In this document: piece after piece, positions 31,549-55,246 of the stretch
Numbering within the stretch: position 1 is the first letter of the stretch
Layout: the number at the start of each line of letters is the position of its first letter
Origin: Veillonella caviae
Lineage (GTDB): Bacteria; Bacillota; Negativicutes; Veillonellales; Veillonellaceae
Assembly: GCF_003992125.1 (NCBI RefSeq)
Contig: NZ_RQUY01000001.1
Span: 1 to 64,000, forward strand
Length of the DNA: 64,000 nucleotides
Reading direction: 5' to 3'
Notes under the pieces: model-generated
The model's database searches: none
Seen by the model: the letters and a program-made list of their open reading frames with translations, nothing else
What the model was told of the DNA's origin: nothing
Translations under genes and position numbers: made by a program

Positions 31549-32183
31549 ATTTTAATCTGTTAAGAACGCAAAAAGTCGATGTACTACGATATTTGCCAAA
31601 ATTCTTGGCGAATGATACTACTTTTAAAGTTAGCCAAGATTCATTAAGCGAAGAGCATGAAAAATTACGTTTACTCATTATAGATTTGTGTCGGCAGATG
31701 TTTGTTGAAAGCGCTACATGGGGGCTTGATGATTGGGAACGTGTATATGGAATTACTCACAATTCCAATGCAACAGATGAAGAGCGTCGAAATATGCTTT
31801 TAATTAAAATGCAAGGGACTGCTACCATTTCTATCGCAAAGCTTAACGAGCTAGTCAATTTAGTTACTCCATCTAAGGATGTTATTGTTTTAGAAAATAC
31901 AAAGCCAAATCAATTTAAGGTGCTAGTAAATACGCCTGTTTCAGTAAAAGATATTCGGGAAGTAGTAGAATTATACAAACCTGCCCACCTTGCTTACTTG
32001 GTGGCACATCAGTTTACGTGTCAATCGGCAGTAAATATATTAGGCGCTGTTAAGATTGCTAGATGTATCAGTATTAAACAGGCTGAAAATGATGGCATAA
32101 TCAGAACTAAATTGCCAAATATATCTACAATTGGGGCTGTTTCAACATTACATACATTACATATTAATCAGGAGGATCTATGA
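31545..32183 (+). CDS. XkdU/DUF2313-like baseplate protein
   Basis: A 212-residue protein with DLCRQMFVESATWGLDDWER and DEERRNMLLIKMQGTATIS, the signature of DUF2313/YmfQ proteins found between baseplate J and tail fibre genes. It overlaps the fibre gene by 4 bp. Confidence 0.85.
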   Translation: MNFNLLRTQKVDVLRYLPKFLANDTTFKVSQDSLSEEHEKLRLLIIDLCRQMFVESATWGLDDWERVYGITHNSNATDEERRNMLLIKMQGTATISIAKLNELVNLVTPSKDVIVLENTKPNQFKVLVNTPVSVKDIREVVELYKPAHLAYLVAHQFTCQSAVNILGAVKIARCISIKQAENDGIIRTKLPNISTIGAVSTLHTLHINQEDL

Positions 32184-34132
32184 GCGAATACGGAGCTATT
32201 ACACCTACTATAAATGGGCTAACAATGATTACAGAATCTGTGGTGAAAAAGAAACCTATTGTATTTACTAAAATAGCCATTGGAGATGGTGCACTTACTA
32301 ACCAAAATATAGAAACGTTAACAGCGTTAATTCGTCAAAAGCAAGAGGCCCCAATTCATATCGTGACTGATAAAGGTGCAGGACTTGCTGATGTATCGGC
32401 TGTTATCACAAATGCAGGACTATCAACAGGATATTATGCACGAGAACTAGGTGTGTTTGCGAAAGTAGGGGATACGGGGCAAGAAAAATTATTTGCCTAC
32501 ACCAATGCGGGTGCAAATGCTAGCTATTCACCTGCAGATGGATCGTTAGACGAAAAATTAATTACCGTAACATTTAAAATTGGTACTGGTGCCACTTTAA
32601 AAGTAGCATTAGATAGTCAAGTATATTTAACACTTGGAAACTTAGAAGAGCATAACACCTCAAGAAGTGCACATGCTGATATTAGGGCAAAAATCACTAG
32701 TGATATTAATGCGCATAACAGCTCAGGTACATCACATGCTGATATTAGGGCAAAAATTACTAGTGATATTAATGCGCATAACAGCTCAGGTACATCACAT
32801 GCTGATATTAGGGCAAAAATTACTAGTGATATTAATGCGCATAACAGCTCAGGTACATCACATGCTGATATTAGGGCAAAAATTACTAGTGATATTAATG
32901 CGCATAACAGCTCAAATAGTGCACATGCTGATATCCGCAGAATGTTTAATAACTATTTACCATTAACAGGCGGTACAGTAAGTGGAAGAACACATATTGA
33001 TTCAATGCTGAGTGTGGGGCAATCGAGTGAACAGGCTAGTAATATTCGTGTAGATGGTGCTGCCGGTAATGCGTATATAGCCTTATTAAACTATAATAAC
33101 GTAGGTAATCTTTTAATTGATGGGTATTTTAACAACCCTGAGACAGCTGTGATAGATGTTACGAACCGTAGTATAAACGGAACAGTTCGGTATCGGTCGA
33201 CATTAATGGATGGAGATGGTAACGCTAAGTTTGCTAATGACGTATATGCCAATAATAAATTATTGGCAACAAAAGAGTACGTTGATGGCAAAAAATGGAG
33301 CTCAACAAGTATTACCGATGGTGCTATAACACCGACTAAATTAGATAGAGCCTATTTGCCATTAACAGGCGGTACAATAACAGGTCGATTGCACGTAAAT
33401 GACCTTGTTAGCACAGGTAGCGATACTATGCAATTCAGCAATTTCATTCAAACGAGTTTGGCCGGTAAAGCGTATCTTACAACAGGTAAAAATAATTCGG
33501 ATAACTGGTTTAACGTCGACGGGTATTTCAACAATCCAGAGCAATCAAATATTGGTGTGTTGAAACGCAATGCAAATGGAGACGTTATCGCAAGAGCGTA
33601 TTTATTGCATAACGACAACAAAACATACTTTCCTAACGAGGTATATGCAAATAATAAATTGCTAGCCACCAAGGAGTACGTGGATACCAAGGGGACTAAT
33701 GACTTGAATGTGCACAATACATCTAGTAGTGCACATAAGCCAATTCTTGATGCGATAAAAGCAATTACGGGAACTAGCGCATTTAATACGGCACCTAGCA
33801 AAAAACTAACAGAAATTATAACATTGCTAGGTCAGGGTGGAATTGTTAGCTCAAAATTGGATGCTGCAGCAGGTTTTGTGAAATTTGCAAATGGATTTAC
33901 CATTCAATGGGGAAAAACTCCAAGCACACAGACATCTAGTGTTATTGCAGGTAGAAACAATAAGTTCACATTGGATTTACCAATTAGATATGCAACACCT
34001 TTTATATCCATCGCAATTGATTTTGGCGATGGAGCTGTTGGGGTATCAACAACACTTACGAACACGCAAGTAAATGCTTTTGCAAACCAAACTACCTTAT
34101 ATTGGAGTTATATTGCAGTTGGCATTGCTTAG
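32180..34132 (+). CDS. tail fibre protein with internal repeats
   Basis: A 650-residue protein. Residues 1-150 resemble the DUF3751-type N-terminus that docks to the baseplate (GAITPTINGLTMITESVVKK). Next comes an array of 21-residue repeats (HNSSGTSHADIRAKITSDIN). Then two homologous modules of about 130 residues each start YLPLTGGT and end NNKLLATKEYVD. The C-terminal tip is a beta domain (FKFANGFTIQWGKTP-like). It is the likely receptor-binding fibre and host-range determinant. Confidence 0.85.
   Translation: MSEYGAITPTINGLTMITESVVKKKPIVFTKIAIGDGALTNQNIETLTALIRQKQEAPIHIVTDKGAGLADVSAVITNAGLSTGYYARELGVFAKVGDTGQEKLFAYTNAGANASYSPADGSLDEKLITVTFKIGTGATLKVALDSQVYLTLGNLEEHNTSRSAHADIRAKITSDINAHNSSGTSHADIRAKITSDINAHNSSGTSHADIRAKITSDINAHNSSGTSHADIRAKITSDINAHNSSNSAHADIRRMFNNYLPLTGGTVSGRTHIDSMLSVGQSSEQASNIRVDGAAGNAYIALLNYNNVGNLLIDGYFNNPETAVIDVTNRSINGTVRYRSTLMDGDGNAKFANDVYANNKLLATKEYVDGKKWSSTSITDGAITPTKLDRAYLPLTGGTITGRLHVNDLVSTGSDTMQFSNFIQTSLAGKAYLTTGKNNSDNWFNVDGYFNNPEQSNIGVLKRNANGDVIARAYLLHNDNKTYFPNEVYANNKLLATKEYVDTKGTNDLNVHNTSSSAHKPILDAIKAITGTSAFNTAPSKKLTEIITLLGQGGIVSSKLDAAAGFVKFANGFTIQWGKTPSTQTSSVIAGRNNKFTLDLPIRYATPFISIAIDFGDGAVGVSTTLTNTQVNAFANQTTLYWSYIAVGIA
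32651..32940 (+). repeat. 63-bp tandem repeats in the tail fibre gene
   Basis: Units start at 32651, 32714, 32777 and 32840, with a partial unit at 32903. The units at 32714, 32777 and 32840 are identical over 63 bp. Each encodes 21 residues in frame, so copy-number change would keep the fibre gene open. Confidence 0.92.
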
Positions 34133-34771: not shown

Positions 34772-35320
34772 ATGGAGTTAATTAATGAAGTCATAACAAA
34801 AATACTACTCGGTGTATCTCATGCACATCTAGTTGATATGGGGGTTGTAGTCATATTGACTACAACCCTTGTATTTATCGATGCTACCCAACGTGTGGCC
34901 ATTGAGGTATTGCGGTATAACCTCGATAATGGACGTCAAAATACGGTCGTAAATTGCATAACTACATTGTTATGGTACGGTTGGGGTCGCGGTACCTATA
35001 CAAATGAACATGGTGAAAGCAAGAGGTATTTAATGAGCGAACGCCTTCGAGGTGATTTACTCATTAAATTGTGTATACAATATCCTGCGTGGATGTTGTT
35101 ATCGATTATATTTGTATCGTTGCCGGATATACCTATTCCGACAACGGAACTATTTGCCGACCAAGTATTTGCCTTTGTGTTCATGGCAATTCCGTTTTTG
35201 TCAGAATGTTGGTCAATTTTAGAGAATCTACGAGAAATTGTAGAAGATGATCTCATCGATTTTAGCAAATTGTACGCGATGGCTGTTGAATTAATTAGAG
35301 TATGGAGGGGCAATGGATAA
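34772..35320 (+). CDS. membrane protein, putative holin
   Basis: A 182-residue protein with hydrophobic segments near residues 20-37 (VDMGVVVILTTTLVFIDA), 105-120 and 130-145. The first resembles the Phage_holin_4 group. It sits between the tail terminator and another small membrane protein before the amidase. It overlaps the next gene by 8 bp. It could instead be a holin-associated membrane protein. Confidence 0.6.
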   Translation: MELINEVITKILLGVSHAHLVDMGVVVILTTTLVFIDATQRVAIEVLRYNLDNGRQNTVVNCITTLLWYGWGRGTYTNEHGESKRYLMSERLRGDLLIKLCIQYPAWMLLSIIFVSLPDIPIPTTELFADQVFAFVFMAIPFLSECWSILENLREIVEDDLIDFSKLYAMAVELIRVWRGNG

Positions 35321-35639
35321 GACTAAAATCATTAGTGCCATAAAAGGTGCGTTTCAATCTGTGCGTATTGCCCGCATCAAGCCGACAGGGGTCCTTGCAA
35401 CGAGGGCGCTTACTATGGTTATATTTATACCAATACTACTGGTCATCGTTAAATATGCGATGGCCTTTTATATTGGTGTGGTTAGTGATGCCGATGCAAA
35501 ATTAATCAATACAGGTATAAATATCATTGACCATATATTTATACCAAGCGTATTGACCGCTTTGATTGGGTTCCTCGCGCTATGGATTGATAAAGACCAC
35601 AATGGAATCCCTGATAAATTAGAAGATGATAAGAAATAA
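35313..35639 (+). CDS. small holin-like membrane protein
   Basis: A 108-residue protein with two membrane spans (about 32-52 and 78-93) and a charged C-terminus (WIDKDHNGIPDKLEDDKK). Size, topology and position before the amidase suit a class II holin. Having two holin-like genes in a row may mean a holin/antiholin or holin/pinholin pair. Confidence 0.7.
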   Translation: MDKTKIISAIKGAFQSVRIARIKPTGVLATRALTMVIFIPILLVIVKYAMAFYIGVVSDADAKLINTGINIIDHIFIPSVLTALIGFLALWIDKDHNGIPDKLEDDKK

Positions 35640-35651
35640 GGAGAAACTAAA

Positions 35652-35975
35652 ATGGAATTAAAAGAAGGTTTATTAGGTTTTGACACAGCTATTCAATTAT
35701 TAAAAGACGGCTGCAAGGTTACGAGAGAAAAATGGATTGAACAAGGTAAATTCATTGTGTATCAGAAAGGATATCCGAAGGGCATCCCATGTAACAAAAA
35801 TACGGCAGAAGCATGGGGGCTGAACGAGGGAGATTTGTTTATTTGTAATCCATACCTCCAAGTCCGAAATGAAGATGGAAGTCATAGTATGTATTCCCCA
35901 AGTTCTGATGACGTATTGGCAGAAGATTGGTGTTTATATTTAACTGATGATGAGTTATTCAATGGTTTAATTTAG
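35652..35975 (+). CDS. DUF2829/Tad2-like protein
   Basis: A 107-residue protein with the DUF2829 pattern: GFDTAIQLLKDGCKVTREKW at the N-terminus, GKFIVYQKG, then PYLQVRNEDGSHSMYSPSSD and LAEDWCLY. This domain is known as Thoeris anti-defence 2 (Tad2), which in studied phages sequesters the Thoeris signal nucleotide. Here it lies in the lysis block, between holin-like gene and amidase, an unusual place for an early-acting inhibitor. Tad2 function for this copy is inferred from family membership. Confidence 0.85.
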   Translation: MELKEGLLGFDTAIQLLKDGCKVTREKWIEQGKFIVYQKGYPKGIPCNKNTAEAWGLNEGDLFICNPYLQVRNEDGSHSMYSPSSDDVLAEDWCLYLTDDELFNGLI

Positions 35976-35986
35976 GAGGACAAGGC

Positions 35987-36505
35987 ATGAAAGTATTCAT
36001 TAACCCAGGACATGATATTGATTTAGACAGCGGTGCTGTAAACCCTATTCACGGCACCCGTGAATGTGATATTGCTCGTGATGCAGGTAAAATGCTAGCA
36101 CGGTATTTAAATACTGCAGGCTGTGAAGTGCGGACTGTACAATCCGATGACCTCGGATATGTATGCGAACAGTCCAACAAATGGGGCGCCGATGTATTTG
36201 TATCTTTGCATTGCAATTCTTTTAATACACAAGCTAAAGGCACAGAAACGTTATTCAAATCATTCAATGGTCAGAGATTGGCCAACGATATCCAAAGTCA
36301 AATTATTCGCTCTATTCAGACCACTGATAGAGGGGTAAAAAAGCGTGATGATCTTTGGGTGTTAAATGGTACCGATGCAGTAGCTGTACTGGTTGAAATG
36401 GCTTTCATCGATAATGAATACGACCATTCGCTATTGATGAATGACCTCGATACAATCGTGCGTGCGATTGCAAGAGGTGTAACGGATTATCAAGAGGGAT
36501 ACTAA
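35987..36505 (+). CDS. N-acetylmuramoyl-L-alanine amidase (endolysin)
   Basis: A 172-residue single-domain amidase_3: zinc ligands in FINPGHDIDLDSGAV (His8), ECDIARDAGK (Glu25) and FVSLHCNSF (His), with the catalytic Glu in VLVEMAFIDN. It has no signal peptide and no wall-binding domain, so it needs a holin to reach the murein. The stop overlaps two following start codons in different frames. Confidence 0.92.
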   Translation: MKVFINPGHDIDLDSGAVNPIHGTRECDIARDAGKMLARYLNTAGCEVRTVQSDDLGYVCEQSNKWGADVFVSLHCNSFNTQAKGTETLFKSFNGQRLANDIQSQIIRSIQTTDRGVKKRDDLWVLNGTDAVAVLVEMAFIDNEYDHSLLMNDLDTIVRAIARGVTDYQEGY

Positions 36506-36936
36506 TGTATGAAAGAATTAAAATTATTATGGCCAAGTATCGTAGTTATTGCTATGTGCTCATTGGCGTTGTTGTTCTCACCTGTGCATGGTGCGTCGCC
36601 AACTGGAGAAGTAACGTTGACACAACAGGAATTCGCAACGCTGAAAAGCAACTTGAACGAGCTGGAGAGTACAATCAACAATCAATTGAATACAATCAAC
36701 GAGCTAGAGATGCAATTACAAATAGTGAAGCTGTCAACGAGCAAATCGAATACGCAGTTGCTCGAAGCATTGAAGCTAATCAACGAACAGAAGAAGGAAT
36801 TGCAACAAGCCAAGAACTCGCTGCAAGAGCAAGAGAGGATGCTAACCGAGCAAAGACTATCATTAGCGAAAGCCGAAGTATACTTGAACGAGCAGAAGAA
36901 CGAACTCGCCAAAATGAAGGCCAAACAGCGGAATAG
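36505..36936 (+). CDS. spanin-like protein, frame A (inner-membrane type)
   Basis: 143 residues from an ATG overlapping the amidase stop (TAATG), six bases after AGAGGG. It has a basic N-terminus, one membrane span (YVLIGVVVLTCAWCVANW, about 17-34) and a long Gln/Glu/Arg-rich coiled coil, the layout of an Rz-like i-spanin. It shares nearly all of its DNA with frame B starting four bases later. Spanins disrupt the outer membrane, which suits a diderm host. Confidence 0.6.
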   Translation: MYERIKIIMAKYRSYCYVLIGVVVLTCAWCVANWRSNVDTTGIRNAEKQLERAGEYNQQSIEYNQRARDAITNSEAVNEQIEYAVARSIEANQRTEEGIATSQELAARAREDANRAKTIISESRSILERAEERTRQNEGQTAE

Positions 36937-36991
36937 TACATTACTGAATATCGCCTTAGGGTTAGGGCTTGTATATGTGGCTGCCAAATAA
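36509..36991 (+). CDS. spanin-like protein, frame B (secreted coiled coil with hydrophobic tail)
   Basis: 160 residues from an ATG four bases downstream of frame A's. Residues 1-29 look like a signal peptide (LLWPSIVVIAMCSLALLFSP, then VHGAS); a long coiled coil follows (about 40-140) and the C-terminus is hydrophobic (LLNIALGLGLVYVAA). No standard lipobox is seen, unlike classical Rz1. The frame is complete, longer than frame A, and encodes a sensible domain order, so both frames may be real. Confidence 0.65.
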   Translation: MKELKLLWPSIVVIAMCSLALLFSPVHGASPTGEVTLTQQEFATLKSNLNELESTINNQLNTINELEMQLQIVKLSTSKSNTQLLEALKLINEQKKELQQAKNSLQEQERMLTEQRLSLAKAEVYLNEQKNELAKMKAKQRNSTLLNIALGLGLVYVAAK

Positions 36992-37253: not shown

Positions 37254-37280
37254 ATGAGGAGAAAGGAGGTGAGAAAGTGA
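37254..37280 (+). CDS. possible leaderless 8-codon upstream ORF
   Basis: ATG lies at the expected transcription start of the promoter and encodes MRRKEVRK; its TGA overlaps the GTG of the next gene (GTGA). The downstream ribosome site lies within this frame. It may regulate translation of the toxin-like peptide. Confidence 0.35.
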   Translation: MRRKEVRK

Positions 37281-37396
37281 AAGAGTTTCTAGATGCAATA
37301 AAAGAAGTCGCCTCACTCGTAACGCTTTTAGCAAGTACTGTGCTAGTGGTGCTAAAGCTAATTAATGAGTGGAACGACTTCTTCCGCAAAAAGTAG
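37277..37396 (+). CDS. 39-aa hydrophobic peptide, possible type I toxin
   Basis: From a GTG after AAAGGAGGTGAG. One membrane span (about 11-28, VASLVTLLASTVLVVLKL) with a charged C-terminus (NEWNDFFRKK), the build of Fst/TxpA-like type I toxins and holin-like peptides. It has a strong, repressible-looking promoter and is followed directly by a GC-rich hairpin. No antitoxin RNA is proven. Confidence 0.5.
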   Translation: MKEFLDAIKEVASLVTLLASTVLVVLKLINEWNDFFRKK

Positions 37397-37400
37397 AGCC

Positions 37401-54268: not shown

Positions 54269-55246
54269 ATGAAATTAAAAAAAGGCATAGCTTTAGGGCT
54301 AACTTGCCTTGCTTTACTAGGTTTAGCAGGGTGTGGATCGTCAAATACATCTAATAGTGGTGAATATAAGGTAGGTATTGTTCAGTTAGTCGAACATCCT
54401 GCTCTTGACGCAGCTAATAAAGGTTTTACTGATGCATTAAAAGAAAAAGGTTTGGCTGATAAAATTAATTTTGACCAACAAAATGCACAAGCAGATCAAT
54501 CGAATTTGAACAGTATTGCGCAACGTTTTGTGTCAGACCGTAAAAATCTGATTTTAGCTATTGCTACACCGGCAGCTCAAACTATGGCAAATGCAACTCA
54601 TGACATTCCTATTTTGGCTACTGCTGTTACAGATTATGAATCAGCTAAATTAGTTAAATCAAATGCACAGCCTGGTGGTAATGTATCGGGTACATCTGAT
54701 ATGAATCCTGTAGAACAGCAAGTGGATTTAATCTTACAAGTTATGCCTAATGTGAAAACGATTGGTACCATTTATAGCTCTAGCGAAGTAAATTCCCAAT
54801 TACAAGTAGAAAAAATGAAAGCCTATGCGGCTACTAAAGGGATTACAGTAAAAGAAGTTACTGTATCTACAGTAAATGATATTCAACAAGCAGCACAAAG
54901 CCTTGTATCTGATGGTGTACAAGCCATTTATGTTCCTACAGATAATGTGGTGGCATCGGCTATTTCTAATTTAGTTTCTGTTACAGATGCTGCAAAAATA
55001 CCTGTATTTGGTGGTGAAGATAATCAAGTTAAAGGTGGCGCTATGATGTCCTTATCTGTAGATTATTACAAACTTGGTTATCAAACAGGTTTAATGGCTG
55101 TTGATATTTTACAAGGAAAATCTAAAATCGAAGATATGCCTGTAGAAATGCAAAAAGAGTTTAAACTTGTTGTAAATAAAGAAAAATTAGAAAAATTGGG
55201 CATCACATTGCCTCAAGAATTGTTAGACAAAGCATCTATGATTTAA
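54269..55246 (+). CDS. ABC transporter substrate-binding lipoprotein, copy 1
   Basis: 325 residues from the ATG after GGAAGGAG; a longer frame from 54206 hides the signal peptide. Lipobox LAGC with Cys22. ABC_sub_bind family of the TrpX type (VGIVQLVEHPALDAANKGFT; ATPAAQTMANATHDIPILAT). It is a close paralogue of the next gene. Ligand unknown; some relatives take up aromatic amino acids. Confidence 0.88.
   Translation: MKLKKGIALGLTCLALLGLAGCGSSNTSNSGEYKVGIVQLVEHPALDAANKGFTDALKEKGLADKINFDQQNAQADQSNLNSIAQRFVSDRKNLILAIATPAAQTMANATHDIPILATAVTDYESAKLVKSNAQPGGNVSGTSDMNPVEQQVDLILQVMPNVKTIGTIYSSSEVNSQLQVEKMKAYAATKGITVKEVTVSTVNDIQQAAQSLVSDGVQAIYVPTDNVVASAISNLVSVTDAAKIPVFGGEDNQVKGGAMMSLSVDYYKLGYQTGLMAVDILQGKSKIEDMPVEMQKEFKLVVNKEKLEKLGITLPQELLDKASMI

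Follow-up and report, generated by a model that had tools for sequence, protein, structure and literature searches.

The closest described systems are the phage spanins. Two-component spanins such as Rz/Rz1 of lambda occur in embedded or overlapped gene architectures, and Kongari et al. (2018) define their o-spanins by lipoprotein signals, with other anchors left unconsidered (PMC6139136). A 2025 survey filters on the lipid box and states that spanins are absent in Gram-positive phages (PMC12596118). Phage lysis surveys of this kind demand a lipobox for o-spanins and leave diderm Firmicutes aside (PMC6139136; PMC12596118). For the Negativicutes, including V. parvula, neither Lol components nor demonstrated outer-membrane lipoproteins are on record (PMC5007114, PMC5491611, PMC10665443). 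These bacteria nevertheless have an outer membrane, and a search of the literature on spanins in Veillonella or Negativicutes returned nothing relevant.

The gene pair analyzed here, A and B, shares with Rz/Rz1 its final place in the lysis cassette after holin and endolysin, a predicted type II inner-membrane partner with a helical periplasmic domain, and a partner gene in the +1 frame within shared DNA. It differs in that B is not a lipoprotein, is longer than A and carries a hydrophobic C-terminal tail, and in that the two genes start within a few bases of each other, whereas the o-spanin gene starts at 0.4–0.5 of the i-spanin gene in about 70% of embedded cases. B also resembles the unimolecular spanins (T1 gp11 type), which combine an N-terminal lipoylation signal with a C-terminal transmembrane domain (TMD), in having an export signal at the N-terminus and a hydrophobic segment at the C-terminus. 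However, A and B have no lipoylation signal, B being without a lipobox, a second protein is obligately co-encoded, and B is predicted to be one long helix. A third system for comparison is the XhlA-type phage 'haemolysin' (PF10779), in which a coiled coil is followed by a hydrophobic C-terminal tail and which has no signal peptide. B shares the coiled coil and the tail but has a signal peptide, and PF10779 matches one of 23 B proteins, weakly (E = 0.0016).

Two genes in one stretch of DNA

The window, by which we mean the whole 64-kb stretch of DNA that was analyzed, carries a 38-kb prophage that is IMG/VR UViG 2868209962_000002. It lies in a Veillonella genome, to which V. montpellierensis DSM 17217 and Veillonella sp. 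VA139 are the closest named genomes. The features of the lysis cassette are collected in Table 1. The role of the multi-span membrane protein as a holin is a candidate assignment based on hydrophobic segments judged by eye. Look-alikes of the second holin candidate are found upstream of many Veillonella A/B pairs.

Table 1. Lysis cassette of the prophage and features of the A/B gene pair (window positions)
Feature	Position	Strand	Remarks
Multi-span membrane protein, holin candidate	34772-35320	+	182 aa; phrog_23091, E=2.6e-66 (annotated unknown function)
Small membrane protein, second holin candidate	35313-35639	+	108 aa; phrog_27828, E=1.1e-47
Tad2-like domain protein	35652-35975	+	PF11195, E=1.7e-17; inside lysis cassette
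Endolysin, N-acetylmuramoyl-L-alanine amidase (Amidase_3)	35987-36505	+	PF01520, E=5.4e-35; phrog_435 endolysin, E=1.7e-59
Shine-Dalgarno-like AAGAGGG	36492-36498	+	precedes A and B starts
Protein A	36505-36936	+	143 aa; ATG 36505; i-spanin-like type II membrane protein (predicted)
Protein B	36509-36991	+	160 aa; ATG 36509; proposed outer-membrane partner of A
B hydrophobic C-terminal tail STLLNIALGLGLVYVAAK	36935-36988	+	sole part of B beyond the A gene

The pair lies directly 3' of the endolysin gene, a placement in the lysis cassette and an overlapped arrangement that both belong to two-component spanins (embedded, overlapped or adjacent genes). The ATG of A overlaps the stop codon of the amidase gene and that of B follows 4 nt later, in the +1 frame relative to A, within ATGTATGAA; homologues with the same start layout have AGGAGG followed by ATGTATG. 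The original prediction of two full frames with starts four bases apart was confirmed in coordinates and lengths, as was an overlap beyond the usual Rz/Rz1 nesting: the two genes share 428 nt, which is 99% of A and 89% of B. B-specific DNA is limited to the last 18 codons, which encode the hydrophobic tail. The third forward frame contains 17 stops within the overlap. We also considered B as a frame-shift product and rejected this possibility, as B has its own start.

Selection on both frames and distribution

A profile made from B alone was used to locate 52 distinct loci class-wide, which were then fetched; all were outside profile building except L062, which repeats the training locus L019. 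At 52 of 52 loci the A frame was open (over 330–460 nt), stood in the same +1 relation to B and matched the A profile with E values from 4e-5 to 3e-23. On top of these, two loci picked for a stop in B or a missing 5' part of B (L131 and L132) look decayed.

At each of the 52 loci the synonymous codons of one frame were shuffled and the other frame was scored, in both directions. Whichever frame was shuffled, and at each of the loci, the real second frame outscored every one of the 20 shuffles that were scored, with median scores of 46 versus 11 bits for A and 53 versus 13 bits for B. On average A remained open in 4.8% and B in 13% of shuffles, values that fell to 0.1% and 1.1%, respectively, when background codon usage was applied. 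With within-gene shuffles, the log10 probability of an open second frame, summed over the 52 loci, was −94 for A given B and −68 for B given A; background codon usage gave −163 and −142, respectively. For the window itself, A was open in 0.08% of 20,000 trials when B was fixed and its codons were shuffled, and B was open in 12% when A was fixed in a synonymous shuffle. Because a synonymous shuffle of one frame disrupts the other at 52 of 52 loci, in both directions, A and B are both real proteins under selection. The original prediction had proposed comparing both frames across homologues and had named a frame broken in close relatives as evidence against two genes; the comparison was positive, and neither frame was broken at the 52 tested loci. 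The alternative of a single gene with an accidentally open second frame, as composition can produce where overlapping frames encode helical proteins, is extremely unlikely and is refuted at the level of selection by these shuffles.

Fourfold degenerate sites were also compared between close pairs. They differed at 393 of 924 sites in the endolysins (42.5%), at 108 of 509 in the overlapped part of B (21%) and at 6.5% in A, whose third positions are second positions of B. In the short non-overlapping tail of B the fraction was 32/131 (24%), about as few as in the overlap, so this comparison is suggestive and by itself no proof of constraint from A: it goes in the right direction against the endolysins but not against the tail of B. 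Since the contrast fails against B's own tail, the claim of dual coding rests on the shuffle test.

In a set of 380 Negativicutes genomes the B-only profile matched 128, in 59 of 102 genera, and the A profile matched 104; many of the 380, counted irrespective of prophage content, were without a match. Separate searches with B and with A among 60 relatives led largely to the same loci, down to about 20–30% identity, and the inspected relatives were A/B pairs, mostly right behind an endolysin of varying type. The upstream gene encoded a peptidoglycan hydrolase at no fewer than 55 of 68 loci (Amidase_3 at 25, Amidase_2 at 16, GH25 at 10, M15 at 3 and a glucosaminidase at 1). Among 398 genomes sampled across the phylum, full-length matches were restricted to Negativicutes; other matches were partial and of the coiled-coil kind, mostly within far longer or stop-ridden frames. 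Three matches from outside the Negativicutes were inspected and set aside as unrelated coiled coils with no matching overlapping A-like frame. When 50,697 deposited phage records were searched, neither blastn of the window DNA nor tblastn with window A, window B and two more B proteins found a relative. Contig collections were scanned successfully with patterns from closer subgroups, the full profiles of 23 rows being too diverse for this purpose. One match in V. montpellierensis (L115; G004:C2:132948-133085) covers just the C-terminal 43–48 residues of B at 57–58% identity and is either a remnant or a tail-only relic. The A/B pair is a class-wide lysis-cassette module without an existing name, and an unusually complete, ancient same-strand gene overlap that is constrained in both frames across tens of genera.

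Anatomy, family matches and the lipobox

Over 81 loci the median length is 129 residues for A and 150 for B. In the window, A has a transmembrane helix at about residues 14–33, a hinge at 37–39 and a single long helix at 40–142; AlphaFold placed the transmembrane helix at 2–36, followed by the hinge and a helix at 40–142 (pLDDT 94). Across the 81 loci the N-terminus of A is strongly hydrophobic (15-mer hydropathy median 2.8, minimum 1.7) and the remainder hydrophilic, and A has the anatomy of an i-spanin, an N-terminal TMD followed by a periplasmic helical domain (Kongari et al., 2018). B has a predicted signal peptide at about residues 1–28, a disordered stretch and a single helix at 39–159, which AlphaFold also modeled as one long helix (pLDDT 87). 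The stretch ahead of its tail is positively charged at 75 of the 81 loci, and Lys or Arg is found among the last three residues at 78. The tail is short, with a median of 12 residues free of Asp, Glu, Lys, Arg, Asn and Gln and many tails of 12–15 residues.

Heptad (3.5-residue) power was 9.0 for A and 7.4 for B versus about 0.6–0.9 at other periods, and the periodicity was stronger than the other frame imposes, exceeding the 95th percentile of shuffles at 46 of 76 and 45 of 76 loci for the two proteins. The value of 9.0 for A compares with 5.6 in shuffles, so the signal partly follows from the other frame via the code. The long predicted helices, heptads and hydrophobic N-terminus of A agree with the original description of one N-terminal span and a coiled coil, and the signal-like N-terminus, predicted helix, heptads and C-terminal hydrophobic segment of B agree with that of a signal peptide, coiled coil and hydrophobic tail. 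In their hydrophobic heptads the two proteins are also phase-locked about one residue apart (resultant 0.97; window and 75 other loci), with one 21-nt period in the DNA giving both coiled coils; the lock is at least partly forced by the genetic code.

Window A matches phrog_18860, a family annotated as of unknown function, over residues 1–141 (E=5.8e-10). With a threshold of E<=0.001, this family is matched by 33 of 65 A proteins, the best reaching 7e-58. A also gave some weak matches to Rz-like spanin PHROGs, eight in number; the best had an E value of 4e-8 and most lay at about 1e-4 to 1e-6, a similarity that could reflect helical composition. For B, searches of PHROGs, Pfam and NCBIfam returned no specific family, the Pfam and NCBIfam matches all being generic coiled coils. 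The lack of a PHROG that covers B would follow from gene callers discarding overlapping frames, and genes of the A/B type are likely to be lost in this way. The Rz family PF03245 was found in 0 of 200 Negativicutes genomes (the E. coli control was positive). A Foldseek comparison with viral models yielded no meaningful match, the queries being long single helices, and a PDB sequence search gave generic coiled coils only.

The original prediction that neither protein has a standard lipobox held: none is present in window A or window B, so that B differs from the o-spanin outer-membrane lipoprotein of Kongari et al. (2018), and among 85 loci a loose lipobox pattern matched B at 5 and A at 13, with the matches scattered in position. 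A CAWC sequence in A was considered as an AWAC-like lipobox and rejected, being unconserved even in the nearest homologue (LTCVWLY). A scan of the prophage part of the window detected no lipobox ORF; the only one in the window, at 54269 and outside the lysis region, encodes a probable substrate-binding protein and served as the positive control of the scan. LolA was absent from the host genome and from all 200 Negativicutes genomes sampled, with a positive result for the E. coli control, and Lgt is present in the host genome.

Proposed function and alternatives

The position after the endolysin, the long type II rod of A, the secreted partner of similar length and the coiled-coil signals point to a spanin-like pair. 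Because the defining feature, the o-spanin lipoprotein, is missing, we do not class it among the two-component spanins; it would work like one but without the lipoprotein, with A in the known phrog_18860 and B apparently outside known specific families. The original proposal of a new spanin arrangement for diderm Firmicutes thus stands as to spanin-like position and anatomy and confinement to Negativicutes in the sample, but 'spanin' in the published sense does not apply to a pair with no o-spanin lipoprotein signal.

We favor, with a probability of roughly 0.7, a role of A and B as the final element of the lysis cassette, a two-protein complex for outer-membrane disruption that resembles Rz/Rz1 without an o-spanin lipoprotein. 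The amidase would cut the peptidoglycan first, and A and B would then disrupt the outer membrane. The N-terminal helix of A would hold the inner membrane, with its hinged helix of about 103 residues extending outward, and B would be exported by its signal peptide, presumably with cleavage, and its helix would pair with that of A as a coiled coil. The short hydrophobic tail of B, after its basic stretch, would anchor in or be driven into the outer membrane and so replace the lipid anchor of an o-spanin, whose absence would be explained by the lack in Negativicutes of any known Lol pathway leading there. Zippering of A and B would draw both membranes together. If the rods are parallel, the anchor of A and the tail of B would lie at opposite ends and the pair would bridge the envelope; if they are antiparallel, zippering would pull the membranes together. 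We know of no targeting route that puts an alpha-helical tail into the outer membrane.

The outer-membrane anchor is our preferred location for the tail, which is short and could equally sit in the inner membrane. This gives the main rival, which we consider rather unlikely: a spanin-like pair with both partners in the inner membrane, A as a type II protein and B as a type I protein held by its tail, in which B touches the outer membrane or OmpM with its free N-terminus or coiled coil, or attacks LPS with its basic stretch. A signal peptide combined with a C-terminal hydrophobic segment ending in Lys or Arg is a type I inner-membrane layout, and such topologies were named as possible spanins by Kongari et al. 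(2018; PMC6139136). However, the basic flank ahead of the tail is contrary to the positive-inside rule for an N-out/C-in helix, and tails of 12–15 residues also argue against this location. Less probable still is a lysis-timing or holin accessory, or a superinfection-exclusion pair, in place of an outer-membrane disruptor. Small membrane proteins of such kinds also occur in lysis cassettes, and besides the single XhlA match noted above, window B touches the 'hemolysin' phrog_1193 (E=2e-4), but XhlA-type matches are rare and none was among the families listed for a 73-member scan. The order of endolysin and then pair is kept across unrelated endolysin types, the rods are of periplasm-spanning length and the sampled non-Negativicutes genomes had no full-length relatives, all of which speak against these roles.

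In 29 of 81 B proteins (for example at L079, L087 and L109) the signal peptide ends at a Cys that fits [GATS].?C[SATKED]; since Thr, Ile, Tyr or Leu often precedes the Cys, this is not a standard lipobox. Lipidation of B (or A) at such a non-canonical site could draw on these Cys residues, on the loose pattern in 5 of 85 B proteins and on Lgt, but is very unlikely given that window B has no such motif near its cleavage site (SPVHGASPTG), that one of these four residues stands ahead of the Cys in most cases, that the positions of the matches vary among members and that there is no Lol route.

The pair is a concrete and widespread candidate for the exit mechanism of Negativicutes phages, in a class whose Veillonella members are genetically tractable. 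More tentatively, and at somewhat less than even odds, it may represent a class of phage membrane-disruption machine for diderms without outer-membrane lipoproteins, in which 21-nt-periodic DNA read in two frames gives two heptad rods of similar length, A anchored N-terminally in the inner membrane and B C-terminally in the outer membrane. No earlier spanin-like system would then have used a helical stretch of protein instead of a lipid anchor.

Three minor features of the region were also observed. The Tad2-like gene between the holin candidates and the endolysin is a possible anti-Thoeris gene within the lysis cassette. Upstream of the cassette, the tail fibre gene (32180-34132) contains several near-identical tandem copies of NAHNSSGTSHADIRAKITSDI. 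Downstream, a small hydrophobic ORF, KEFLDAIKEVASLVTLLASTVLVVLKLINEWNDFFRKK, at approximately 37278-37397, possibly encodes a small membrane peptide.
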